Assembly: GCF_000003605.2 (NCBI RefSeq)
Contig: NW_003108083.1
Coordinates: 951,586-978,088 of the forward strand
DNA: 26,503 bases
From: Saccoglossus kowalevskii
Lineage: Eukaryota > Hemichordata > Enteropneusta > Harrimaniidae
Direction: 5' to 3'
Below are positions 6,401-26,274 of this stretch, piece after piece. The position numbers and the translations under genes were made by a program. The number at the start of each line of letters is the position of its first letter. The stretch's first letter is position 1. A model generated the notes under the pieces. It worked only from the letters and a program-made list of their open reading frames with translations. It was not told the origin of the DNA and made no database searches.

Positions 6401-9400
6401 CATCTGAAAGAAAAAACAAAATTCATTACATGATTTAACAATGAAAAATCTTGTTTTATAATTCCAATTTTGATGCCAAGTTTATTTTGTTTTGTGAAAA
6501 GCATTTCAAATTCTATCAATTCAGCTCAAATAAAAAATGGCGGGAAAACAGTACTATTTCACTGTCGAAATGCTATATTTCCTTACTACTGTAAAATATT
6601 TTATTTTAGCTGGAATTAATTTTCGCTGAAAAGACTTTTTGGCTGTTTTGTATGGAATTTATTTTCACTGATTTTTGACGAGTTGAATGTAAAATATAGG
6701 AAAAAAGATATATTCGCTGGATTTTATTTTCACTGAATCATTACTTCAGCAAAAATAGCGAAAATTAATTCCAAGCGAAAATAAAGTATTTCATATTCTG
6801 ATGCAACATTTTGTACTTATATTTTTCTTAAAATAAACCGACATGAGGCCAACAAAAATAAATGATTTATTACTAAGTCATGTGTGTCAGTTTAAAAGGA
6901 GGCTGTTCACAACCTTTTGGTGGTTTCTTCCTAAATGTAGTAAAAAATGGAGAAAAAACAGGGGGAGCAAATCACTGCACCAGAAAACAAACTTTTTTTA
7001 GCCTCATTTTCCATTACTTTATATTTTGCTCAATATTTTTTGAAAAAAATATGGTTTCATTTTTTTAAAGCAAAAAAAATTGACTTTGGCCGTGAAACCA
7101 AACAAGCAGCCGGTCGGCTGAGATAGCTCGGCTGTTAGCAATGCACATTTCAATTATTAAAAGAACAGAAGATATCATTACAAATGAACAATATGTATAG
7201 TATCGGGACTTGTTGTTTTCAACAAGAAGTCAAAAATATCACTTTTCACCAACAATGACAAAAATAATCATCAAAATTAGATAATTGAAAATATTATCAC
7301 GAAATTAACAAACCTGAAAGAGGTCCACATGTAGTACCTATATATGTAATATCAAAGCAATTGGAATTGCGGTTTTTAACAAGAAGTCAAAAATATCACT
7401 TTTTACCAAAAATGACAAAAATATTCACCAAATTTAGTAAATTAAATATATCATTACAAATTGAACAAATCTGAGAGAAGTCCACATGTAGTACCTATAT
7501 ATGTAATATCTAAGCAATTGGAATTGCGGTTTTTAACAAGAAGTCAAAAATATCACTTTTTACCAAAAATGTCAAAAATATTCACCAAAATTAGAGAATT
7601 AAAGATATCATTACAAAATGAACAAATCTGAGAGAGGTCCACATGTAGTACTTATATATATAATATCAAAGCAATTGGACTTGCGGTTTTTAACAAGAAG
7701 TCGCAAATATCACTTTTTACCAAAAATGACAAAAATATTCACCAAAATTAGAGAATTGAAGATATCAACATGAAATGAACAAACCTAAGAGAGGTCTACC
7801 CAAGGTACATATACACCAAGTATCAAAGCATTCAGGCTAGTAGTTTTCAAGAAAAAGTCGAAAAAGTAAAACATTGAAACGGACGACGACGACGGACAAT
7901 CACTCATATGATAAACTCCGCTTGACAAAGTCGACAGCGGAGCTAAAAAAGCAGATGTTTCAGAGAAGTTTGTTTACCTGTCTTATCATAGATTTCTCTC
8001 TGAAATCTAACATCATCTTTCTCTGTTTGATTCGCTTCTGTATTTCATGGATCCATCCATTGAAGCATCTAGAAAATAAAAAAAGTAAACACAATAGATA
8101 ATGTTGGTGATAATGTCATAGGAATGTGAGGTCATAAGAATGAGATGTCATGGGGACGTCATGCCATAGGAACGCCATAGAGACGTGATGTCATAGAGAC
8201 GTAATGTCATGGGGACGTGATGTCGGGAACAAATAAATAAATTTTGGGTGATAGTGCCACATCTCATACAGACATACTAGTAATATCATAGTCAGTATGT
8301 CATAGAGATAAGTCATATGGACATGTCATAGTGACCTTAATTCACATGGATGTGATGTCATTGGAACATGTCATAGCAACAGGATGTCATAGAGATGTGA
8401 TGTCATAGGGGCATGAAGTCATACGAGCTCAAGATCTTAGGTATGCGATATCACAGGAACATTAACAAAGCCACAATGTATAATACATTTGATTTTTAAA
8501 ACGCTTGTCATTTTTATCTGAACTCATTAACATTGTATTATAATTTACATAATCTCTACTAAATCAACATGATCCAAACAATCATTGATTGCTTTGTACA
8601 TGTATATCTATTGCAAAAAATGTTAGTGAGATATCTTTGCAGGAAAAATCTGTGAGTGAAACAACTTACTTTCTCTTGACTACTTCGTTATAATAATCTC
8701 GGCTCATGATTGATTTCTCTGTATTATCCACCCATTTCCTGAAGACATTAGCAATCTGCATTTCCCTGTATTCTTGGCAGTATCTATCGGCAATGTCACG
8801 CATCTTGGCACAATTCCGTGCCTGACTCCTCCAGTGATGGACGATGAGCTTCAGGCGATACTTCAGTCTTTTCTGTTCTTCGATGTGTTCTTTCCACAAA
8901 TAGAAACACTGCAAGATAAAAGTTTGTGAATATGCTCGTCATTAAACACTGTGGCAAAATGAAAGCCAGCAATGAACTAATTTTTTTTGGAACTAATCTC
9001 CAACAAATTTAAAAGTGTCAGTACCCGAGAATTAAACTAATGATGGATTTTGTTACCTTGCATAAAGTACTCCTGGTATAATGCCTTTGACCTTTAGTGA
9101 TTAATGCACACTCCCTCCACTCGATGAACATACTTTGGACCATTCTAGTCTCTGTGTGCTGTCTGTATTCACATGCTAGTTTATTCTGACGATGAGAAAG
9201 CCACCATTGCGTAAATGTCTTCATCAGTGTTTTACGCATTTGTATTTGTTGATACTCCTCACATTTGCGTTTGTTTTCTTTACGTCGTCTAACTTCTATA
9301 TGCCATGCCATCAGAGTTCTGTAATAAATAAACATGTAAATGCATTTAGTTGTTTCACACTCACAAGTAAACAAAAGTTAAGAGAAGAATCAGTCTATGA

Positions 9401-12400: not shown

Positions 12401-15400
12401 GTAAGCCTTTGTGAATTCTGAAAATGTGTAATAGCAGTTTACACTAAGTTAAAACACAGTTATATGTCATCCAGGGTTATACAGCCAAACATGTAGACAA
12501 CAAGGATAGGAATGATAACGTATGTGGAATAATTATCATAGTATTGCAATACCACATGACACATGCCAGTATTATATGCAGGGAGGAAATCACAACAGTA
12601 CACACGTGCTGCAAAGCTTCATGCAGCAGTCTAGGTTGGGACACTAATTTTCATATGTTGTATTTCCTGTATTTGAGCTCAACAATCAACACATTGTAGT
12701 GATTCAACCTTTGAGCTTTGAGTGGCAAAGTCTACTAATTATATTTTTTTAATAATATAATGTATTACCCGGTATATGTCTATTTGGTCTAAAATTAACA
12801 GAAAAGTTAAAATTAAAAGAAAAATACATAAAAATGATGCACCAATATTTTGGTGGAAACAAACTATGGCGCTCGAAGGTTTGAAACAGGAGATACAAAC
12901 TAATCTGACGACTTGTATGTCAATGTTCTTATTATTGATTGGTGACATTGAGGCACACAATACATTGCATTCTGGGATACACCACAGTAGGACAATTTAA
13001 GTGAAGACACACACACACACACAAAGTAAACAGATTGCTTACAGAGACATCATTGGTTTGATGTTGAAAAGTACTGGACTGCAATTGACAGATTAAATGA
13101 AAAAATTAGAATTATGTCATAATAAATATTGATGTTTGTCAAAAAGTTGTCATTTTGGGGGTTATGATTAAACAAAAAACCTATATTTTGTTTCATAAAA
13201 CAAATTTAGCAATTCAATGCAATGTTGAACTCTTCTGTGCATAAGTAATGAGCTGATTTGAATATATTCTGTGCATAAGTAATGAGCTGATTTGAATATA
13301 TTCTGTGCATAAGTAATGAGCTGATTTGAATATATATATATGCATAAGTAATGAGCTTATTTGAATATATTTATGCATAAGTAATGAGCTTATTTGAATA
13401 AATCTATGCATACGAAATGAGCTAATTTGAATATATTCTGTGCATAAGAAATGAGCTGATTCGAATATATCTCTGCATAAGTAATGAGCTTCTTTGAATA
13501 TATCTATGCATAAGTAATGAGCTTATTTGAATAAATCTATGCATAAGAAATGAGCTAATTTGAGTATATTCTGTGCATAAGAAATGAGCTGATTCGAATA
13601 CTGTAAAGGGGGTAATTATTCACTGGGTTTTAATTTAGCTTATTTCGCTGACTGGAAAAATGCGCTAAATTAAAACACAGTGAATATGTAATATTTAGCA
13701 TAGAACACATTATCCAAATAACGAAACCGTGAATTTAAAACCCACTGAATATGCCTGAAATGGTAAATCAGTGAAATTTAAACCCAGTGAAAATTAGTCA
13801 TTTTACAGTATATCTCAGCATAAGTAATGAGCTTATTTGAATATATCTATGCATAAGTAATGAGCTGATTTGAATATATCTATGCATAAGTAATGAGCTG
13901 ATTTGAATATATTCTGTGCATAAGAAATGAGCTTATTTTTAATATATTCTGTGCATAAGAAATGAGTTTATTTTAATATATTCTGTGCATAAGAAATGAG
14001 TTTATTTGAATAGTGTCAATTTTCACAAAATAAACCAAATTCATTTTTAAACAAGAATGTGACCAATTAGAAATGTCCATTTGGTTGAAGACCAAGGAAA
14101 AAATTATATAAATACACAAAATTTTACAACAAAATCATGCCAGAAAAAAATATGGCGTTCATAAAAAGTACAAGAATAATAATCAAAGACAGTTTTACCA
14201 TATAAGGAAAATACATTTCCATATATGGTCAAAGACAAGTATAAATGTATGCAAATTAAAACCATTATATATAAAAGTACTTACCCGATGTTTCCATACA
14301 AGGAATGCCCTCATGAGGTCACCAGAGTTTGAATGTCTGGTTGCTATGGCAGTCTTGTGTTGTTTACGTTTTCGATCAATTTTATAATATAACAAGGCCT
14401 TCAGACATTTCTCTTTCATCTTGGTTTCCTGCAATCATAACAATATTTTGTTGATTTTACAAATTTCACAAATTAGAGGGTTTTGTGAAATTTATGTGCT
14501 TTTGACAAGGGTGCAAATTATTCTCAATTTTGAAGCAAGTGAATAATTACAAAATAAGAATAATAATGGCAAATTTTATCTATCGGGTGGAAAACTGACA
14601 CTGACAAAATTAATCAAACTGAAATAAAATTGCAAAAATGTGATAACAATGATACTAATTCCATCATACGTTAAAGAGCAATGGACCTCGCACAGTGTAC
14701 GTTTGATTTCATTTAAACCAACAATGCTTTTTGCACACACAAGTCTCATATCGAACAAGACATGCTGCAACAACCACTGCCCTTTAAGTTTACGTGCTAA
14801 TTTACGTGCTAATAAGGCATGACGTCTAAGTATGTCAGTGAACAAGCGTTATGGCGACAAATGATTACCGATAAACAGTAAAAATATTACCCTGCAATCG
14901 ATATCTTTTCCAAATAAACTTTTGGTCGATATTATCATTACATCAGTATGACCAAACGATTTGTTTTTCTCTACTGCCGAAATCCAAAAAGTTTAGAACA
15001 GAATCAGCGAACTTCTTTGGCTGGAGTCTGATCAAACCCTGATGGCAACCATGTTTGTTTTTATTATTAGAGGACGCTTAATCATTCCATATTTGGAATT
15101 CACATTTCCTTATATGGTAGGATGAAAATACTCCGTAAAATACCGCAAAATTACGTCACCCTATAACTTATGGCGTTACAGTGACAGATGTATAATGATG
15201 AAGCATAACTGATTTTTCAACTTACCCAATGTTCGGCTGCTTTAACTGAAGCAGCATGTTGTCTCTTCCAGACCTGCATACCATGCTTTAAAGTCAACAG
15301 CATGCTTGTATACTGCATATGGTACTGCAGTTGACACAGTAATTTCTGTTTTCTAGTGTACGACAGCCATTGCTGAAAAGCGGTGCTTGCTGGGTATAGT

Positions 15401-18400
15401 TTCCAATGTAGAATTATACGCTTTAGAGTCAGCTGGAAATATAAAAGAAAACGTGAAATAAGCTAATTTTACTAATTTGTCTTCAGATTTTTAACAAGTT
15501 TTTCTGCCAAAGCTGTTGTCTCAAAATTGCTATCACTGTAACGGCATTAATTACTCACTGGGTTTTAATCTCACTATTTTCAGTGATAAGTAAAATCTGC
15601 TGAAAAAAAGCCATGTGAAAATGTAAAATAACATTAGAACTCACTGTTTCTCACAGTTTCAGCCAAATTCGTGAACTTAAAACCAAGTGAAAAGGCTCAA
15701 ACATTAAAACAGTGAAATTAAATGACAGTGAAAATGAAAGGGTTGTACAGTATCATAAACATAATTATTTACCTGTCTGTTTTGTGGTATCTCTACATGC
15801 AGTGAGTCCGAGTACAGACTAGATGGATAGGAGTTGGATTTAAAGCTAAGTGGTTTCGGGAACATTCCCTGTCCATCCCATCGATCCGCCTCATCATGGA
15901 TGGGATAACCTGGATATCCATCAAAATGATTACCGTTGTTACTACTACCGGTGGATGCAATTGGAATGTTGCTATGGAAACCACTACTATTCTGTGACAC
16001 TGTTTCCGAGAGTTGGCTTGCAAGCGACAGGGTAGAGTCGTCGCTCAGAGTAGGCGAGCTGGGTCCACCCAGCGATAGCTTGAATTTCTCCACAGAATCT
16101 TGGCAAGTTTGTTTGGCATGGCCGTTCCATGACTGAACAACTTGGCGCATCAATCGCAACTGTAGATCATCATGGTATTCTCTGAAATATAAACCCATAA
16201 ACATACATGAGCACTGTTTTCTATTAAATTTAGAAGCAATATCAGAAGATAATATTACCTGAATGTATTTTTTTTGTTATGCAGAACAATTGATTTGGTG
16301 TCAAGAAACAAAACTTTGACCTGCTCTGTCCTATAAAAAACTTAAAACTTAAAAAATATTTTTATATGTTGATTTTAGCTTCCAATGACAACAATCATTC
16401 GAAAATTATTTATTACAAACAAACAATCTACCATCAAATCAACAAGACATGATGAGATATTATATTTACTAAAGTAAACAAATTTGGAAATCATAAGCGT
16501 AAACTCTTCAATACATTCTGACCACATGGTTTATTGATGAACTTACCTAGCTAACTGGTTTCCCAGAAGTTGCTTCTTCCAGTTAAAAAATGCATTTTTC
16601 ATTGTATTCCCAGACTGGTAATCACTAAATGATTTCAACACATCATCGGTTTTATCTTTATGATCATACAAAGTATCTCTCCATTTCCCAAGAAACACAC
16701 TCTTCAAAATATGGCCTTCAGCCTGTGAAGAACAAGAAAAAAGAAAAAAAAACATGAATTTTAAAAGGACTAGTAATTAAAGGAATTATATGAGCACATA
16801 ATGAGATTCCATGTAAATAAACAAGTGCATAAATAATGAAGACATTCTCCATCAAATGCAATAAAATATGCACATAAATAATGAAGACATTCTTTATCAA
16901 CTGTAATTAAATATGCACATAAATAATGAAGACATTCTCCATCAAATGTAATAAAATATGTGCATAAATAATGAAGACATTCTTTATCAACTGTAATTAA
17001 ATATGCACATAAATAATGAAGACATTCTCCATCAAATGTAATAAAATATGTGCATAAATAATGAAGACATTCTTTATCAAATAATTAAATATGTGCAAAA
17101 AATAATTTTAAGAAGTGGCTCATCCATGCAAGATTGGGATTTGGCATTCCAGAGACAAACAAATACATCACCTTTTGTGCTTCATCATCGTCCCTTTTTT
17201 CCACAAGGTCTTCCCATGATTCTTTCCATTTATCAAAGGTGTGTTGCAGTTTACTGTGATGGATTTGCTCTGTAAGCATTTGACATTGTACGGTTCTCTG
17301 AGCGACACCACGCCAACCCTTCATACAACGGCGTAATTTATTATCCAGTATCTCTTGGGCAACTTCTTTTTCCCGCTGTAGCAACTCGGCTTTCTCCCTG
17401 CAAACACAAGATATTAATGAAAACAAATTTAAAAGGAAGCAGCAATGCATTATGGGATACATTCACATCAGATTAGTTCTCTTTCATCATTTGTTTTTGT
17501 TGTAGCAAGGAGATGAATATAGAACAGATATGGTACATAATGCAGTCTTACTTTCTTTCTACCTCCAGTTATATCCACAACTGAGGGTGTTACTGCACAT
17601 ATATGCAATGCATTATGGGATACATTCACATCAGATTAGTTCTCTTTCATCATTTGTTTTTGTTGTAGCAAGGAGATGAATATAGAACAGATACGGTACA
17701 TAATGCAGTCTTACTTTCTTCTTTCTACCTCCAGTTATATCCACAACTGAGGGTGTTACTGCACATATATGCAATGCATTATGGGATACATTCACATCAG
17801 ATTAGTTCTCTTTCATCATTTGTTTTTGTTGTAGCAAGGAGATGAATATAGAACAGATACGGTACATAATGCAGTCTTACTTTCTTTCTACCTCCAGTTA
17901 TATCCACAACTGAGGGTGTTACTGTACATATATGCAATGAATTATGGGATACATTCACATCAGATTAGTTCTATTTCATCATTTGTTTTTGTTGTAGCCA
18001 GGAGATGAATATAGAACAGATACGGTACATTATACAGTCTTACTTTCTTTCTACCTCCAGTTATATCCACAACTGAGGGTGTTACTGTACATATATGCAA
18101 TGCATTATGGAAATAACTTCCCATTGTACCCATAGATAAAGGAAAACAATTTTTTTTAAATGGTAATATAATATAATATAATATAATATAATATAATATA
18201 ATATAATATAATATAATATAATATAATATAATATAATATAATATAATATAATATAATATAATATAATATAATATAATATAATATAATATAATATAATATA
18301 TGTCCCCCAAGCAAAATTTTGAGATATGAAGAAAAAAAACGTTAGTCCAAGTATTTTAAGAACTGGATACTTACTTCCAAGCACTGAATGCTCCACTTAG

Positions 18401-21400: not shown

Positions 21401-24400
21401 AACCGTGAATTTAAAACCCACTGAATATGCCTGAAATAGTAAATTAGAAAAATTTAAACCCAGTGAATATTAGTCATTTTACAGTAGTTCATTTCTATGA
21501 TATATGTTTCAATGAACTGTGTGCATGAGTGAGATGGGTGAAAACAAGCAAATATGTACATACAGATACTGCCCAACAAACTGCTTAAACTGTTTTTAAA
21601 TTTAGAAAACAATTACAAAATTTGGAAGCACAGAACTTTTTATAAAAACTTTCATAAGATTTTGTTCTCACAAACATTTATAAATCAATGAAATAAAAAA
21701 AAAATTCCTAATAACAAGAATTACAGTTACAGTTACCAGTAATTTGTTTGTGAACTTGGATTGAATGTGCTTCAGACATTTGAGTTGTTCATTCAGAAAT
21801 ACAGTTCTACATATGATGGTGTCATATATGAGCATATCCACAAATTGGTCAGTAAACGACAAATTAGTCCTACGGTATACACAGATATTGTAAATAAAAA
21901 AACAATTTTAATTTCCTCTGCAAAAGTCCTGGACAATTATATCAAAACAACACAAAGTTCAACTTACTTGAGTCTATTCCTGTTCATCATTTTTTGCATT
22001 ATTTGTTGTTTAAGCTTCAACGACCACTGTGCAAAATACACCTTCAATAGCGCCTTCTTGTGGAATTCTTTAGCTTCACTCATATCTTGCAACCGTTCTG
22101 CTCGTACAATCGGCAGACTTCGTCTCCATCCAGTCAGTATCTTAGAGAGCACAGTCATGCTTCAAGAGAATAAAGAGTAACTAATTATAAAACTAAATGG
22201 CAGACTTTGTCTCAGTCAAGTCAGTATCTTGGGAGAGTGCGAGAATGATGTTAATAATAGAATAATTTGTGAAGTTTTATTGCAGTAAACTGCGTGGAAA
22301 AAAAAGAAATTGTGAGTCTGGGAAATGTTTTTTTTTTAGCTGTGAACATTTTATCTTCTATAGAAAAAAAGTTTTCCTGTAAAAACAGGAGCTATGGAAT
22401 AGGTGAATTTGATAATGGTTCTTTGATATGTGCCAAAGGTGTGAAATCATTGTCTCCATGTCAAGTACATGGCATTCATGTCAGGTCCTTTTGTTGCTAC
22501 GGGATCACACCTCAAAGTCAGAACTTTTTTTCTCTTGTATTCAGTGAATTTTCAAAAGCGAGAATTAATCAATCTGTCGACATTGTGAAATCATTTAACA
22601 TAAAGGGCGCAAGTTTGGAAGCATTTATCAATTGCTAAATACAAAGTGGTATGAAAATTATTGAGAGCTACTCGAGGAGTTTTTTTTCCCCTAAGTTTTA
22701 GATCCATAAAATTTAGAAATATATTGAAGACAGATGAAGTTTAAATTTTTCGAAATACATTGAGGAAGTTTTGAAAAGGAACTACTTGAAATCAAAATAA
22801 AAATCTACTTAATTTTCACCATGAAACTCATACACATATTTGACTTTGAAAGGTACAATTGCAAGAAAATCAAAATGTCACAGTCAAATGCTGACAGCGA
22901 AAGATCAATAATTAAAAGAAAATAATATAATTAATGAATAAATATAATTACACTAACAAATACATTTAAAAATAGTACCAGCTGGGTTTCAAAACTAGGA
23001 AATTAAGCCAGATAGAAACAGATGACAAGAAGTTCTTTGTACCAAAAACAGATCTATTATCTGTGTTTTCAAGGCCACAATTTGTTTTTGTTTTTTTGGT
23101 ACAACATTTTATACATTTTCTATAATTTCTTACTTTTACTGCTGGTTATGTAAAATATTTTAAGGATTTTTTTTTAAAAAGTTACAAATGTATGCGAGTT
23201 TAAGTAGAAAAAGTTGACAAAAGTAGACAATGATGATGAAACAGTGAACTATAGGAAACTAACCTATGATGATGAAACAGGGAACTATAGGAAACTAACC
23301 TATGATGATGAAACAGTGAACTATAGGAAACTAACCTATGATGATGAAACAGTGAACTATAGGAAACTAACCTATGATGATGAAACAGTGAACTATAGGA
23401 AACTAACCTATGATGATGAAACAGTGAACTATAGGAAACTAACCTATGATGATGAAACAGTGAACTATAGGAAACTAACCTATGATGATGAAACAGTGAA
23501 CTATAGGAAACTAACCTATGATGATGAAACAGTGAACTATAGGAAACTAACCTATGATGATGAAACAGTGAACTATAGGAAACTAACCTATGATGATTCT
23601 TGGCAATCTGGAATTTATCATACTCAGCTTGCCAATTCTTGAAATATTTCACAAAAGTTTTCTCCTCAAAGTAAACTTTCCCCATTTCATTCTGTGTCGT
23701 TTTAACTCGTCTTTCTGACGTGTAAAGTCTCCAGCTTTGAAAACCTTTACTGAATAGAGTTACTCTGAAAAGAAGGAATTAGTAGAAAAATATAAGTATT
23801 GTGTATTCGCTAGCACTGATTTTCCAGGGTTTTTGTGAATATTTGTCATTATTGCATTCTGAAACATTTGCTGGGTACATATATCCTCGGGGGCGGAACT
23901 ACGTCACAGACGTTCCACGTTGCTAAGACGAGCACCACTGTACATGCATTTCTATGGGCTCTGTGCGCGCTGCTGTGGAACGCCGGTCGAGCTGGTGAAA
24001 ATTCGAGAAAACAACACAAACTCAACTTTGAAGTAATCCCGAACAGCCAAATTTATATATGTTACACACGTAGGGCTAATCTTGTTACACTGTTCAGAGG
24101 AGTCTCAACAATCATCCCAAAGTACCGTTTTCTGCAAGTTTTGGGCCTTTGTTTTCACCGCCGCAGGTTGCCAGGCATTGAAAATGCCCGGATGTCCGCC
24201 CCCGAGGATAGCTAAGTATTTTGCATGACAGGGTAAATACTATGTTAAAGTAAACAAATACTTTGTGCGTATCTCAGACAAATGCACATGTACAACACCA
24301 TATCACCGAGTAGATAATATTTGGTGATTTATGTTCTAAGTACCGGTAACTATTAAAAATAGCTTGATGTTTCAAGCAATGACTCTTAATTGATAGCATA

Positions 24401-26274
24401 GAAAAAAATGGTCCTCTATTGATAGCACAGAATTTTCTATTATGCTATTGATAAAGAGACATTGTTCCAAACATTTAGCTATTTTAATAGTTACTTAGAA
24501 CAATGATTACCAAATATTATCTACTATATATCATATTTATCGGTCCAAGCAGCAGCATTCATTCATTCATTCATTCATTCATTCATTTATTACTTTTACC
24601 AAATCACCAAGCCTGATGACTCGTCACATCTTCTATAATGGCCATTGGACATTCCTCAAAAGGGATACTTAATAACCATAATTTATTCGTGGCGATAACT
24701 TACTTGTAATGAAGTCCCGCTAGCCCCTCTTTCTGTACATCACTGTGTTTATCTTTCCACGCTCGGAACGCACCAGACACTTTCATTTTATCATGTTTAC
24801 AAGACAGTTGTTTAAACTTGTCGGTATCCAGTTTAAATTGTTGCCACGTCAGGAAAGCATGCCGTAATGTTTCGTGCCTGTGTTCATGATATGTGGATTT
24901 CCACTGCAATGATAAACAGGAGAAAAGATTAGAATTCAGTGATTTCAACCACATGGAAACAAGTTAAAAGTTTCCATAAATGTTTTTTTTTTTTTTTCCC
25001 ACAACATAGTAGTGAGATGATTAAAGTTTGATTGGAATAACAAATTTTAAAACAATAACCCCATTTCTTCTATTGAAATACTGTAAAATACTTTATTTTA
25101 GCTAGAAATAATTTGTGGGTGTTTTGTGTGTTATTTTCACTGATTTTTGATAAGTTGAATGTAAAATATAGGAAAAAAGGTATATTTGCTGGATTTTATT
25201 TTCAGTGAATTATTCCTTCAGCGAAAATAAAGTATTCTACAGTATGCGAAAACATTTTAACAAATCACAGTGCAAGTGATTTGTGTGGCAGTGAGTGTTG
25301 TTTGTGTGGCAGTGAGTTTGGTTTGTGTGGCAGTGAGTGTGAAGTGTGATTGCTGTGATCATGCAGTGAATTTAAAATCCTATCTTTTATGTTGTAATAT
25401 GTGTCTAATTTGTTTGCATGTACAATTTATTACAAACTTATAGCACAACCTTTGTTTATGTATTGTAACATTATTTGGTCGCCTCGTTTTTAAATGGAAA
25501 GTTGAAAAAGGTTCAAAAAGTTACATGTTAAACATGCAATCACTGGTGTTTAGACGAGGGATGGTGACATGATACAAATATATAAGATCCAGATCCTATC
25601 TATATTTTTATCCCCTTTCTGTTATCCTGCTACAAAAAGTTATAGCCAAAAACTCACTAAAGGCCCTTGCAAACTAAAACTGCAAAAGAACTTTTTCAAC
25701 CAGAGCATCACCAACGTTTGGAATTCACTGCCAGACAACACAATGACTTCCGGAACAATTAACACTTTTAAATTTCACTGACAAAAATAACATTTGAATT
25801 TTAAATATATAATAGGAGCATTTAGTTTCATTTTTAAAACAGTACCGAAATACAACTGGCGTTTTAGACCACTTTTTCATTACATGTATTATACTATACT
25901 ACTATAATACTAAACCTACAGTTGTAAGTATTGTATCATTGAGAAAAAAAACATGTGCTTTTTTTTTTACCAAAGTCACACATCTGCCATGTTCTTCACA
26001 TGTTCTTCTAATAGAGCAAAAACCTATGCACAAACAAAAACCAATACTCACAGTGTCAAAATGTCTAACTAGCAAATTACTCTGACACTGAGCTGCCAGC
26101 TTTTCTTCTAATTGCTTCTTTTGACAGATGGCATATTTCAAACCTTGGAGTCCTTTCGTCAACATGTGCCGTCTATGAAGGTGCTCGGCATCATTTCTTT
26201 TATCCGGTGATGAACCATTTTTCCACACTGATAGACATTTTCGCAATAGATGCCTTCGCCAGAATACAGCAGCA
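3192..26274 (-). CDS. SFI1: Sfi1-like centrin-binding repeat protein, 25 exons, 5' end outside the window
   Basis: Exons in transcript order: 26274-26052, 24903-24704, 23764-23588, 22159-21968, 20935-20705, 20157-19925, 19424-19238, 18479-18375, 17397-17172, 16722-16547, 16181-15773, 15432-15226, 14428-14285, 11837-11635, 10966-10876, 10371-10109, 9318-9057, 8908-8670, 8068-7978, 6403-6221, 5805-5688, 5371-4849, 4345-4210, 3611-3501, 3407-3192. All junctions are GT-AG, and every split codon joins in phase, giving 1,714 residues plus stop. The protein is about 53 repeats ending in hydrophobic-x-x-Trp, mostly 29-33 residues apart. That is the pattern of Sfi1, whose long helix binds one centrin per repeat at spindle poles, centrosomes and basal bodies. 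A linker near residues 685-786 splits the array. Human SFI1 is about 1,240 residues with roughly half as many repeats, so this protein is long. Another Sfi1-repeat protein is possible; orthology is inferred from motif and architecture only. Confidence 0.82.
3501..3611 (-). CDS. SFI1: Sfi1-like gene, exon x
   Basis: Thirty-seven codons carry one motif, VWSRW, in phase 0 at both ends. The acceptor is CTGTTGTAG and the donor GTAAGT. Both neighbours join without a split codon. Confidence 0.85.
4210..4345 (-). CDS. SFI1: Sfi1-like gene, exon w
   Basis: Motifs are ITFHW and CWNVW. The acceptor is TATTTTACAG and the donor GTATGT. It joins exon v through a split Cys codon. Confidence 0.84.
4584..4774. 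mobile_element. MITE-like element, family A copy 1
   Basis: The ends read ATACTGTGCAATACTTTATT and AAAGTATTTTACAGTAT, so they form an inverted repeat. The interior holds further matching arms (GGAATTAATTTT against AATAAATTCC). Copies at 6587-6796 and 25079-25245 share the interior. It is short, AT-rich and non-coding, and lies in the intron between exons v and w. Confidence 0.75.
4849..5371 (-). CDS. SFI1: Sfi1-like gene, exon v (longest coding exon)
   Basis: About 174 residues carry five motifs in a row: VLLYW, SIREW, VLTHW, SLLQW and VVKKW. Spacers are rich in Lys, Arg, Glu and Gln, typical of long solvent-exposed Sfi1 helices. The donor is GTAAGA and the acceptor TTCCCTAG. Five repeats here are not separated by introns. 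Confidence 0.9.
5688..5805 (-). CDS. SFI1: Sfi1-like gene, exon u
   Basis: The exon opens on VWSRW and ends near FWSQW. The acceptor is TATTTCACCAG and the donor GTAATA. It leaves a single G, joined to GC of exon v as Gly. Confidence 0.85.
5806..6220. other. intron t/u, nothing recognised
   Basis: This is AT-rich intron sequence between exons t and u. I see no repeat, open frame or RNA gene in it. Confidence 0.5.
6221..6403 (-). CDS. SFI1: Sfi1-like gene, exon t
   Basis: Motifs are TFDIW and VMNEW over 61 codons, in phase 0 at both ends. The acceptor is TTTTTTCTTTCAG and the donor GTGAGC. The ATG at the exon start is internal, not a start codon, because the reading frame continues upstream through exon s. 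Confidence 0.86.
6587..6796. mobile_element. MITE-like element, family A copy 2
   Basis: It starts TACTGTAAAATATTTTATTT and ends in the inverse AAATAAAGTATTT. The interior has GGAATTAATTTTCGCTGAAA and TTCCAAGCGAAAATAAAG. Its orientation is opposite to copy 1. Confidence 0.75.
7150..7870. repeat. 157-bp tandem array, about 4.5 copies
   Basis: The anchor GTTTTTAACAAGAAGTC and its variants recur at 7213, 7371, 7528, 7685 and 7842. Each unit also holds GTCCACATGTAGTACCTATA. The outer copies are the most diverged. It lies in the intron between exons s and t. Confidence 0.85.
7880..7950. mobile_element. element tail: GAC-rich stretch and GC hairpin
   Basis: GGACGACGACGACGGAC is followed by an inverted repeat, CTCCGCT (7916-7922) and AGCGGAG (7936-7942), then a run of A. 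It directly follows the 157-bp array and looks like the 3' end of a non-autonomous element that includes it. The hairpin is about 36 bp from the donor of exon s. Confidence 0.5.
7978..8068 (-). CDS. SFI1: Sfi1-like gene, exon s
   Basis: This 91-bp exon is too short to stand out as an open frame. I found it because exons r and t do not join in phase without it. It reads C-F-N-G-W and then a basic helix ending SMIRQ. The acceptor is TTATTTTCTAG and the donor GTAAAC. Its size and layout match exon o. Confidence 0.85.
8095..8440. repeat. irregular short repeat, GATGTCATAGRGACGT type
   Basis: The words ATGTCATAG and GGGACGTGATGTC recur about every 20 bp with many changes through the intron between exons r and s. 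It is decayed, and copy number is uncertain. Confidence 0.6.
8670..8908 (-). CDS. SFI1: Sfi1-like gene, exon r
   Basis: The exon opens on CFYLW and continues with IVHHW and VFRKW. The donor GTAAGT overlaps what would otherwise read as a stop codon just past the exon, which fixes the boundary. It leaves AA, completed by A of exon s. Confidence 0.87.
9057..9318 (-). CDS. SFI1: Sfi1-like gene, exon q
   Basis: It contains TLMAW, TFTQW and MFIEW; the last two Trp are 29 residues apart. The donor is GTAACA and the acceptor TTTATTACAG. Confidence 0.87.
9319..10108. other. intron p/q, mostly featureless
   Basis: It contains the 22-bp repeat at 9462-9552. The rest is AT-rich with no other structure I can support. 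Confidence 0.5.
9462..9552. repeat. 22-bp tandem repeat, four copies
   Basis: The unit is AAAACAAAAGAACCAGTCCA plus two bases, with only a few changes between copies. Confidence 0.8.
10109..10371 (-). CDS. SFI1: Sfi1-like gene, exon p
   Basis: The exon opens on AFRVW and contains ILQRW (followed three residues later by another Trp) and CWRVW. The donor is GTAAGT and the acceptor TTGATTCAG. Confidence 0.87.
10372..10875. other. intron o/p, nothing recognised
   Basis: This is AT-rich intron sequence. I see no tandem repeat, inverted repeat or coding segment. Confidence 0.5.
10876..10966 (-). CDS. SFI1: Sfi1-like gene, exon o
   Basis: A 91-bp exon carries one motif, SFYGW, placed directly after the intron, followed by a Gln/Lys-rich helix. 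The donor is GTAAGT and the acceptor ends ACTAG. Confidence 0.86.
10967..11634. other. intron n/o, one short duplicated motif
   Basis: ACTGGCAACTTT occurs at about 11338 and again as GGACTGGCAACTTTTT at about 11356, with a looser TACTGGCAGTTGC at about 11449. Nothing else is recognised. Confidence 0.45.
11635..11837 (-). CDS. SFI1: Sfi1-like gene, exon n
   Basis: Motifs are IVTNW and CFSVW. It follows the longest intron in the window (11838-14284). The acceptor is TTCATTCTAG and the donor GTAAGG. It leaves two bases that join exon o as Arg. Confidence 0.85.
12150..12405. repeat. 20-bp tandem repeat, about 11 copies
   Basis: The unit is AAAACATAGTGTAATACATC with C/T variation at the end. The central copies are near identical. 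It lies in the intron between exons m and n. Confidence 0.85.
13236..14012. repeat. 34-bp minisatellite, about 17 copies, interrupted
   Basis: The unit starts TGTGCATAAGTAATGAGCTG and continues to GAATATATTC. Eleven copies lie before 13599 and six after 13810. A MITE-like element fills the gap. Confidence 0.88.
13599..13810. mobile_element. MITE-like element, family B copy 1, TA target duplication
   Basis: The ends are CTGTAAAG and TTTTACAG, each flanked by TA. It sits inside the 34-bp minisatellite. Removing it and one TA restores a normal unit (GAATATATCT), so the empty site can be read from the array itself. TA duplication and short inverted ends fit a Tc1/mariner-type non-autonomous element (inference). 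No coding capacity. Confidence 0.85.
14285..14428 (-). CDS. SFI1: Sfi1-like gene, exon m
   Basis: It has one good motif, AFLVW, near the end and a decayed one with Tyr in place of Trp (ALLYYK) near the start. It is 48 codons long and phase 0 at both ends. The donor is GTAAGT. Confidence 0.86.
14429..15225. other. intron l/m, unassigned
   Basis: It has no tandem array and no Sfi1 motif in any frame. A modest open frame on the minus strand at 14576-14845 lacks the Trp motif and suitable splice phase. The stretch 14680-15180 is slightly richer in CpG than its surroundings and may be an old element. Confidence 0.4.
15226..15432 (-). CDS. SFI1: Sfi1-like gene, exon l
   Basis: The repeat array restarts here with IILHW, AFQQW and GMQVW. 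The spacing between the first two is unusually short. The exon ends on a Trp codon (AEHW) directly at the donor GTAAGT. It is in phase 0 at both ends. Confidence 0.87.
15536..15752. mobile_element. MITE-like element, family B copy 3 (diverged)
   Basis: It starts CTGTAACGG and, like copy 1, has TCACTGGGTTTTAAT near the start. It ends GTACAGTA. The middle is diverged from copies 1 and 2. Its end is 20 bp from the donor of exon k. Confidence 0.6.
15773..16181 (-). CDS. SFI1: Sfi1-like gene, exon k (linker exon)
   Basis: The first third has one motif, VVQSW. The rest, about residues 685-786 of the reconstructed product, has no Trp repeat. It is rich in Ser, Asn, Pro and Gly (SLGGPSSPTLSDDSTLSLAS, then a GYPGYP stretch) and looks disordered. 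It contains Ser-Pro and Ser-rich patches that could be phosphorylated (inference). The exon is one of the largest in the gene. The donor GTAAAT lies about 20 bp from the end of a MITE-like element. Confidence 0.87.
16182..16546. other. intron j/k, nothing recognised
   Basis: This is AT-rich intron with no repeat or coding segment that I can support. Confidence 0.5.
16547..16722 (-). CDS. SFI1: Sfi1-like gene, exon j
   Basis: Motifs are VFLGKW and AFFNW, and the end (LLGNQLAR) continues into exon k. The donor is GTAAGT and the acceptor CTTCACAG. It joins upstream in phase 0. Confidence 0.86.
16815..17100. repeat. about 45-bp tandem repeat with alternating unit types
   Basis: ATAAATAATGAAGACATTCT recurs about six times. 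Units with TCCATCAAATG alternate with units with TTATCAACTG, so the higher-order period is about 91 bp. It ends about 70 bp from exon i. Confidence 0.85.
17172..17397 (-). CDS. SFI1: Sfi1-like gene, exon i
   Basis: It begins with a Glu/Lys-rich, coiled-coil-like stretch, followed by motifs CMKGW and TFDKW and then an acidic end (EKRDDDEAQK). The acceptor is GTTTGCAG and the donor GTGATG. Confidence 0.86.
17442..18110. repeat. 163-166-bp tandem array, four copies plus partial
   Basis: GCAATGCATTATGGGATAC (with small changes) recurs at 17442, 17605, 17771, 17934 and, partially, 18097. The copies are nearly identical, which points to recent amplification. It lies in the intron between exons h and i. 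Confidence 0.9.
18164..18301. repeat. (AATAT)n microsatellite, about 27 units
   Basis: A pure pentanucleotide run. It creates long artificial open frames on the minus strand that are not genes. The donor of exon h is about 75 bp away. Confidence 0.95.
18375..18479 (-). CDS. SFI1: Sfi1-like gene, exon h
   Basis: This short exon of 35 codons runs from VFDAW to AFSAW, with the Trp residues 29 apart, so it is essentially one repeat period. The donor is GTAAGT and the acceptor TTTATCTAG. An (AATAT)n tract starts 75 bp beyond the donor. Confidence 0.86.
18571..18702. repeat. 39-bp tandem repeat, 3.4 copies
   Basis: GTCACATGATCAGCACTTAA starts units at 18571, 18610, 18649 and 18688. Each full unit also holds TTGATTGGTCA. 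Copies are essentially identical. Confidence 0.88.
18703..19237. other. rest of intron g/h, nothing recognised
   Basis: It is AT-rich, with a short AG run at about 19007. I see no other structure. Confidence 0.45.
19238..19424 (-). CDS. SFI1: Sfi1-like gene, exon g
   Basis: The exon opens on AFRTW and contains VLTQW further on. The acceptor is TAATTTTAG and the donor GTAAGT. The intron falls immediately before the repeat motif, as in several other exons. Confidence 0.87.
19486..19785. mobile_element. candidate inverted-repeat element, about 300 bp
   Basis: The end AAGAGAGCGGTGGTCGTC (19486-19503) faces GACGACTACCACCCTTTC (19768-19785), an imperfect inverted pair with about 13 of 18 matches. 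ATTA flanks both sides. The interior is richer in CpG than the intron around it. No open frame resembles a transposase. Confidence 0.45.
19925..20157 (-). CDS. SFI1: Sfi1-like gene, exon f
   Basis: Motifs CCHYW and AYKAW are clear, with QVW between them as an off-register Trp. The donor GTAAGT follows a single leftover T, which joins CT of exon g as Ser. This is one of only two phase-1 introns in the gene. Confidence 0.87.
20250..20545. repeat. decayed repeat of about 40 bp, roughly seven copies
   Basis: Phrases such as CAGTGCCTAACT, GGGGTTTCAGGAATGTATGA and later variants recur with heavy divergence in the intron between exons e and f. Its period drifts, and it is clearly old. Confidence 0.55.
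20705..20935 (-). CDS. SFI1: Sfi1-like gene, exon e
   Basis: Three motifs, QCFEVW, VLYAW and ALCDW, lie about 30 residues apart with Lys/Arg/Gln-rich spacers. The acceptor is TATATTTCAG and the donor GTGAGA. Split codons are present at both ends. Confidence 0.87.
21280..21486. mobile_element. MITE-like element, family B copy 2
   Basis: It starts TACTGTAAAAGG and ends TTTTACAGTA. Most of the interior matches copy 1, including TTATTTCGCTGACTGGAAAA and TTTAGCATAGAACACATTAT. It lies in the intron between exons d and e. Confidence 0.82.
21968..22159 (-). CDS. SFI1: Sfi1-like gene, exon d
   Basis: Two motifs, ILTGW and YFAQW, lie in a strongly basic helix. The donor is GTAAGT. The acceptor (TTCTCTTGAAG) is weaker than its neighbours, but it is the one that joins in phase with exon c. 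Confidence 0.8.
22160..23225. other. intron c/d, unassigned part
   Basis: No repeat is recognised. A plus-strand open frame of 114 codons at 22294-22638 has no motif I recognise and no supporting context, so I do not call it a gene. The rest is AT-rich. Confidence 0.45.
23226..23596. repeat. 36-bp minisatellite across an exon-intron boundary, ten copies
   Basis: The plus-strand unit contains GATGATGAAACAGTGAACTA followed by TAGGAAACTAACCTAT. Ten full units are near identical; one has GGGAAC for GTGAAC. On the gene strand each unit contains CATCATAG|GTTAGTTTCC, a copy of the exon c donor. The period is a multiple of three and neither strand has a stop within the array, so long repetitive frames appear on both strands; only the gene strand has a plausible coding role. 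Confidence 0.95.
23588..23764 (-). CDS. SFI1: Sfi1-like gene, exon c (3' boundary lies in a 36-bp minisatellite)
   Basis: It carries two motifs, GFQSW and YFKNW. The proximal donor is CATCATAG|GTTAGT, with the intron starting at 23587. This splice site is the edge of a tandem array that repeats it nine more times, at exon ends 23552, 23516, 23480, 23444, 23408, 23372, 23336, 23300 and 23264. All ten leave the same split codon (AG), completed by the first base of exon d as Ser. Each more distal donor would add 12 residues, RLVSYSSLFHHH. I chose the proximal site because it gives a normal repeat spacing; the used site is not visible from sequence. Confidence 0.8.
23882..24210. mobile_element. 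329-bp element with perfect 16-bp inverted ends
   Basis: TATCCTCGGGGGCGGA at 23882-23897 is exactly inverted at 24195-24210. The outermost TA on each side could be the target duplication, leaving 14-bp ends. The inside is markedly richer in G+C and CpG than the intron. It is too short for a transposase, so it is a non-autonomous element. The superfamily is not determined. Confidence 0.82.
24311..24523. mobile_element. foldback element with inverted arms of about 50 bp
   Basis: The left arm starts TAGATAATATTTGG and runs to TATTAAAAATAGCT. The right arm is its near complement, ending CCAAATATTATCTA. The loop contains a second, smaller inverted pair (TTGATAGCATAGAA against TTCTATTATGCTATTGAT). 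No coding capacity. Confidence 0.7.
24558..24590. repeat. (ATTC)n microsatellite
   Basis: About eight tetranucleotide units in the intron between exons b and c. Confidence 0.9.
24704..24903 (-). CDS. SFI1: Sfi1-like gene, exon b
   Basis: It encodes WKSTYHEHRHETLRHAFLTW, followed by AFRAW with the Trp residues 30 apart. The junction with exon a rebuilds HFDTW across the intron. The acceptor is ATTGCAG and the donor is GTAAGT. It ends with two bases of a split Lys codon. Confidence 0.87.
25079..25245. mobile_element. MITE-like element, family A copy 3
   Basis: It starts TACTGTAAAATACTTTATTT and ends AAATAAAGTATTCTACAGTA, and shares GTTGAATGTAAAATATAGGA with copy 2. It is slightly shorter than the other two copies. 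Confidence 0.78.
25280..25340. repeat. 21-bp tandem repeat, three copies
   Basis: TTTGTGTGGCAGTGAGTGTTG repeats at 25280, 25301 and 25322 with one or two changes. Confidence 0.8.
25533..25781 (+). pseudogene. fossil C-terminus of a CR1/L2-type non-LTR reverse transcriptase
   Basis: The plus-strand frame reads NFFNQSITNVWNSLPDNT, then GTINTFKFH and a stop. This matches the usual end of CR1/Jockey-group polymerases (FF-x-x-R-x-x-x-x-WN-x-LP, then a conserved TFK). Upstream, an LxSLxFRR segment and GDMIQIYKI sit in different frames, so the copy is frameshifted. Only this 3' fragment remains, as is usual for 5'-truncated LINE insertions. It lies opposite the host gene in the intron between exons a and b. 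Confidence 0.75.
25782..26051. other. rest of intron a/b, nothing recognised
   Basis: It is AT-rich and may include the remaining 3' tail of the LINE fragment. No repeat was identified. Confidence 0.4.
26052..26274 (-). CDS. SFI1: Sfi1-like gene, first exon in window (exon a)
   Basis: This exon encodes about 74 residues with two Trp motifs, AAVFW and CLSVW, and a decayed third (GLQGL). The acceptor follows a T-rich tract ending in CAG next to 26274, and the donor is GTGAGT at 26051-26046. It begins with one base of a split codon, so at least one more exon lies upstream, beyond the right edge. It ends in phase 0 with HFDT and joins the Trp that opens the next exon. Confidence 0.85.

Follow-up and report, generated by a model that had tools for sequence, protein, structure and literature searches.

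Turri, Cuin and Porter, in Nucleic Acids Res 23:1854 (1995), are said to have described a minisatellite of human IFI6 (6-16, G1P3) that gives multiple splice donors. The first site and two downstream repeat units of the IFI6 minisatellite serve as donors, giving rise to three mRNAs, as stated in the cited part of PMC4526556. Our search of the literature by title found no other donor-bearing repeat beyond works citing IFI6. Other known arrangements are comparable to such a repeat in one respect or another. In the ratchet points of recursive splicing, as described in the portion of PMC8605326 considered here, an acceptor and a donor are directly juxtaposed within long introns. In intron gain by tandem duplication, a tandem copy of AG/GT can provide an acceptor as well as a donor, and the duplication yields a new intron (the cited parts of PMC4974935 and PMC2891723).

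Here we analysed a 36-bp minisatellite in an Sfi1 gene of the enteropneust Saccoglossus kowalevskii, which lies in a 26,503-nt stretch of DNA (hereafter the window). In both IFI6 and Sfi1, several splice donors come from a minisatellite located at an exon, those of Sfi1 being predicted. Nevertheless, the gene is a different one, its protein is unrelated to that of IFI6, and the ten donors of the Sfi1 array are known here from the sequence alone. The inner junctions of the Sfi1 array are in addition acceptor-like. The Sfi1 array crosses the end of an exon and carries a donor in each unit, which are the two sequence characteristics of the IFI6 kind. We regard it as a probable further case of that kind, which would add a ten-fold set of donors and an acceptor side, the use of multiple donors being predicted. 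The resemblance to ratchet points is restricted to the juxtaposition of acceptor and donor, as the Sfi1 array presents nine tandem copies at the edge of an exon, in an intron of 1428 nt. The array does not appear to be a case of intron gain by tandem duplication: the match between unit and exon edge is limited to 10 nt, the unit starts at the existing donor, and the array multiplies this donor, with no new intron between AG/GT copies in a coding exon being apparent.

Ten identical in-frame donors would constitute a natural experiment on donor choice, in which position is almost the only variable, and a natural dose series as well if the array length differs between individuals. The array also bears on how much change in spacing a centrin scaffold tolerates.

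The Sfi1 gene and its minisatellite

On the minus strand of the window, 12 exons could be joined at canonical sites with no stop in one frame, and eight further exons placed beyond them gave a model of 20 exons. At least five candidate frames (near 14434, 11837, 10983, 3611 and 3407) lie outside this model. The first exons of the gene were not found, and the scaffold has long runs of N on either side of the window (L010, L011, L012 and L013), which are either gaps or sequence that was withheld. When the Pfam profile PF08457 (Sfi1) was run on the 668 residues of the joined protein, three stretches matched (57.8 bits, cut-off 22; E 1e-15), the best of which, residues 221-491, starts after the array junction. 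The assignment of the exon to Sfi1 in the original prediction, which had been made from the sequence of the window, is thereby borne out. Members of the Sfi1 family are known to bind centrin, and tryptophan repeats about 30 residues apart are found on both sides of the array.

The features of the array and its surroundings are listed in Table 1. The array is 368 bp long and contains the last 10 nt of exon E3; it had been placed at 23226..23596, starting 8-9 nt inside the exon, and Tandem Repeats Finder (TRF) corrects both its limits and the overlap. The array itself is no chance match. Each of the ten units carries one exact donor, CATCATAG/GTTAGT, on the minus strand, and AGGTTAGT occurs ten times on that strand of the window and not once on the other. 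The units differ from one another at a single base, an A to C change in the unit that follows the ninth donor, which is synonymous (TCA/TCC, both Ser). Exon E3 ends in phase 2, and all ten donors join in frame to exon E4, so that the original prediction of ten in-phase donors in steps of 36 nt, with the frame kept from any of them, is confirmed both by the exact sites and by the frame-checked joins. The sequence over the junction after the join reads ...KNHHSMTVLSKILTGW, and every further repeat unit taken into the exon adds RLVSYSSLFHHH (12 residues). Beyond the array, the coding frame reads CLLLSTFST and then meets a stop. A frame on the plus strand, 23208-23642 (DDETVNYRKLTY), was rejected as coding, being a mirror of the repeat and having no other support.

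Table 1. Positions in the window of the Sfi1 array, its predicted splice sites and the adjoining exons
Feature	Position	Strand	Details
36-bp minisatellite	23230-23597	-	TRF: period 36, 10.2 copies, 99% matches; gene-strand unit GTTAGTTTCCTATAGTTCACTGTTTCATCATCATAG
Ten in-phase donors TAG/GTTAGT	Last exon bases 23588, 23552, 23516, 23480, 23444, 23408, 23372, 23336, 23300, 23264	-	Step 36
Nine inner junctions, acceptor-like and donor-like at once	23264..23552	-	Acceptor score 6.31 (last 7.59), donor score 6.11
Exon copy of 8-mer ATCATCAT, putative left seed of the array	23590..23597	-	Read from sequence
Intron copy of 8-mer ATCATCAT, putative right seed of the array	23230..23237	-	Read from sequence
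Sfi1 exon E3 (exon c of the original prediction)	23764-23588	-	Acceptor TTTTCAG/AGTAAC; phase 2 end at first donor
Next Sfi1 exon, E4	22159-21968	-	Acceptor CTCTTGAAG/CATGAC
Intron with first donor	22160..23587	-	1428 nt; 1104 nt with tenth donor

Origin of the array and donor choice

The left edge of the array, in the exon, reads AAGA[ATCATCAT]AGGTTAGT, and the right edge, in the intron, reads GTTTC[ATCATCAT]TGTCTAC. If the array is counted as one copy, the two copies of ATCATCAT are 36 nt apart, with the donor between them. As published (the cited part of PMC3389668), minisatellites can start from stretches enclosed by direct repeats of 5-10 bp. While this anatomy is seen directly, we infer the step itself: slippage or unequal exchange between the two ATCATCAT copies would have duplicated the donor-bearing stretch, and later rounds would have led to the ten near-identical units. 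The donor was presumably multiplied because it sat inside the duplicated stretch, and the presence of just one base difference among the ten units suggests that the growth or homogenisation of the array was recent. What we see would then be a young minisatellite that, in expanding, came to span the 5' splice site of a single Sfi1 intron. Such an array could be tolerated because a 36-nt unit divides evenly into codons and contributes no stop when read in the coding frame, leaving the mRNA readable from every donor.

On balance, we lean towards a young and tolerated minisatellite over the Sfi1 donor that has no evolved function, with the first donor, or the first few, being used most and some mRNAs probably carrying one or more of the 12-residue units. 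The use of the first site and two downstream units in IFI6 counts for this explanation. The original prediction had offered, as its second reading, an array serving as a redundant donor; this is formally true, and there is no sign that the redundancy was selected for.

Scored with a matrix built from the 19 other donors of the gene, the array donor (6.11) is the seventh lowest of the 20 Sfi1 donors, and sites scoring at least as high occur at 2.1 per kb on the minus strand outside the array, true donors included. Its U1 pairing energy (-6.1, the other 19 donors ranging from -1.3 to -11.1) is uninformative. The idea that some donors are hidden by RNA folding was rejected, as all ten are alike and predicted to be unpaired at 0.40-0.43.

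Under exon definition, short exons are thought to be favoured among long introns. For competing 5' splice sites there is a proximity rule, for which Hicks 2010 is cited. This rule favours the donor nearest to the next exon (the cited part of PMC3464268). It would thus count against predominant use of the first donor. At the Sfi1 array the two rules conflict, since proximity points to the tenth donor and short-exon recognition before a 1.4-kb intron points to the first few.

If proximity prevails, the late donors, above all that at 23264, would be used most, and as many as nine units (108 residues) would separate two centrin-binding repeats in the usual protein. We consider this unlikely, even though the rule finds a parallel in DOK7, where the intron-proximal site is preferred and is also the stronger one (as given in part of PMC5585400). 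The ten sites of the array are equal in sequence and about equal in predicted openness. The exon would be 501 nt long; two exons in the model of the gene measure 409 and 523 nt. Nevertheless, 17 of the 20 exons in the model do not exceed 263 nt and are set between long introns, a situation in which short exons would be favoured, and late donor use means an insert of 108 residues in a helical scaffold.

The spacing of the Sfi1 repeats, moreover, fits zero units. The tryptophan-to-tryptophan (W-to-W) distance over the junction is 26 residues with zero units, a value that presupposes splicing from the first donor, and 38 residues with one. Around the array, a run of 19 successive W-to-W intervals measures 25-34 residues, with the junction counted as having zero units. 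The tryptophan spacing is not strict everywhere, however, six of the 26 intervals of the model being outside that range (58, 19, 83, 45, 12 and 14). Provisionally, we take the form with zero units as the ancestral protein. AlphaFold2, run on the open frame with no alignment, predicted no helix in the repeat (repeat pLDDT about 30), in a model that is poor overall (mean pLDDT 39.6) and on which we base no claim. With the predicted array donors, the protein may carry a His/Ser insert of varying length, a reading that draws on the open frame and for which a precedent in kind exists.

Acceptor-like inner junctions

Within the array, the AG of a junction is preceded by CTGTTTCATCATCAT instead of exon sequence, which results in a fair acceptor score; ranked from the lowest upwards among the 20 acceptors of the gene itself, it would stand between the fourth (5.51) and the fifth (6.61). 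The true exon edge fails as an acceptor (-3.56), and 5.4% of all AG on the minus strand score as well as the inner junctions. There are 130 AGGT sites in the window (75 on the minus strand and 55 on the plus strand); an acceptor score of 6.30 together with a donor score of 6.10 is reached by all nine inner junctions and by none of the other 121 sites, these cut-offs having been taken from the unit itself and the nine junctions being copies of one event. The motif TTCAC, which we take to resemble a branch point, precedes eight of the nine inner junctions, its A lying 18 nt upstream.

The inner junctions thus resemble tandem recursive-splicing sites (AG/GT), which we offer as a lead. This acceptor side, like the IFI6 parallel, goes beyond the original prediction. 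Were they to work as such, units entering the exon would be removed again in frame, and insert-free mRNAs would arise by more than one path. The joint scores, the rank of the acceptor within the gene and the TTCAC motif all speak for this possibility. We find it quite improbable all the same, in view of the origin of the cut-offs, the single event behind the nine junctions and the frequency of equally good AG. Furthermore, the 36 nt from one junction to the next are too few for an intron, so that at least two units must leave together, and at 1428 nt the host intron cannot be called long. If recursive splicing does occur here, it is attractive to speculate that the repeat makes itself harmless, which would explain how an array that grows fast can occupy a splice site in a scaffold gene. 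The use of distal donors need not then lengthen the protein.

Uniqueness, chance and placement of the array

The unit core has ten matches in the 572-Mb assembly at up to two mismatches, all of them within the array, and this search detected no second allele, and no haplotig or paralog, in which the copy number differs. A genome search with 23600-24700, comprising most of exon E3 and the upstream intron, gave 43 scored matches, one of which is the locus itself; the others fall on a dispersed element or an inverted stretch, and none of them covers the exon. An assembly error, by which a real array of another length was collapsed or expanded, is conceivable, as near-identical short units are hard to assemble and runs of N flank the window. 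We hold such an error to be very doubtful, given an array of 368 bp with a unique internal variant, unique flanks and a unit that has no second copy elsewhere in the assembly.

Among 20,000 random 36-mers of the window, a fraction of 0.506 is open in a given frame when repeated, and the period is divisible by three in 13 of 27 TRF rows, which overlap and include the Sfi1 array. The openness and phase of the array are therefore not remarkable, and we rejected the open frame as evidence of a coding function, since about half of the random 36-mers are equally open. We give the least credence to the first reading of the original prediction, in which the variable insert is a selected protein feature with its length set by splice choice and allele: the unit is open and in phase and its one base change is synonymous, but an open frame and a fitting phase come easily here, a single synonymous change tests nothing, and ten near-identical units are too young to show conservation.

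Three donors in a row (AGGTRAGT) gave 1736 matches in the genome, against 1844 for the pattern read backwards, both being counts of overlapping triplet matches and not of arrays. Hence donor-like arrays as such are apparently not enriched. Other minisatellites of the genome with a consensus donor in each unit have periods of 21, 35, 41 and about 26 bp. Comparison by eye of the donor arrays on four contigs (C128, C166, C850 and C998), from among the matches listed on five contigs with C1089 left out, revealed no evident exon ending at the first donor; a 54-codon open frame runs through the array on C128 and the array on C166 starts at a run of N, and exons are possible there.

In the window, one of 19 merged arrays overlaps a modelled exon, against 6.6 at random placement (5000 trials; P(at most 1) 0.0016), and one touches a splice site, against 5.2 (P(at most 1) 0.006), in a test that takes the 20 modelled exons, omits at least five unmodelled candidate exons and covers positions 3000-26503 only, though three arrays lie below 3000. 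As only one array overlaps an exon where 6.6 are expected, selection seems to keep arrays away from exons, and the array at 23230-23597 would have been let pass.

Neighbouring repeats

The intron upstream of exon E3 contains a dispersed element of about 330 bp (23882-24213), bounded by the inverted sequences CCTCGGGGGCGG and CCGCCCCCGAGG. Among 2578 candidates in the genome, 39 other copies were scored, with identities of 95-97%. The element looks like a non-autonomous DNA transposon (MITE). In the same intron, 24309-24525 matches its own reverse complement at 74%, forming a large imperfect palindrome.

Arrays with a period of 157 bp and a similar unit occur at 7215-7796, in a late Sfi1 intron, and at 5011-5662 of L010, beyond the upstream end of the window; judging from their units, the two belong to a dispersed tandem-repeat family. 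An array of 163-bp units (17442-18110) ends some 45 nt short of the acceptor of exon 17397-17172, and a perfect (TAATA) run of 27 copies lies at 18164-18300 in an Sfi1 intron.
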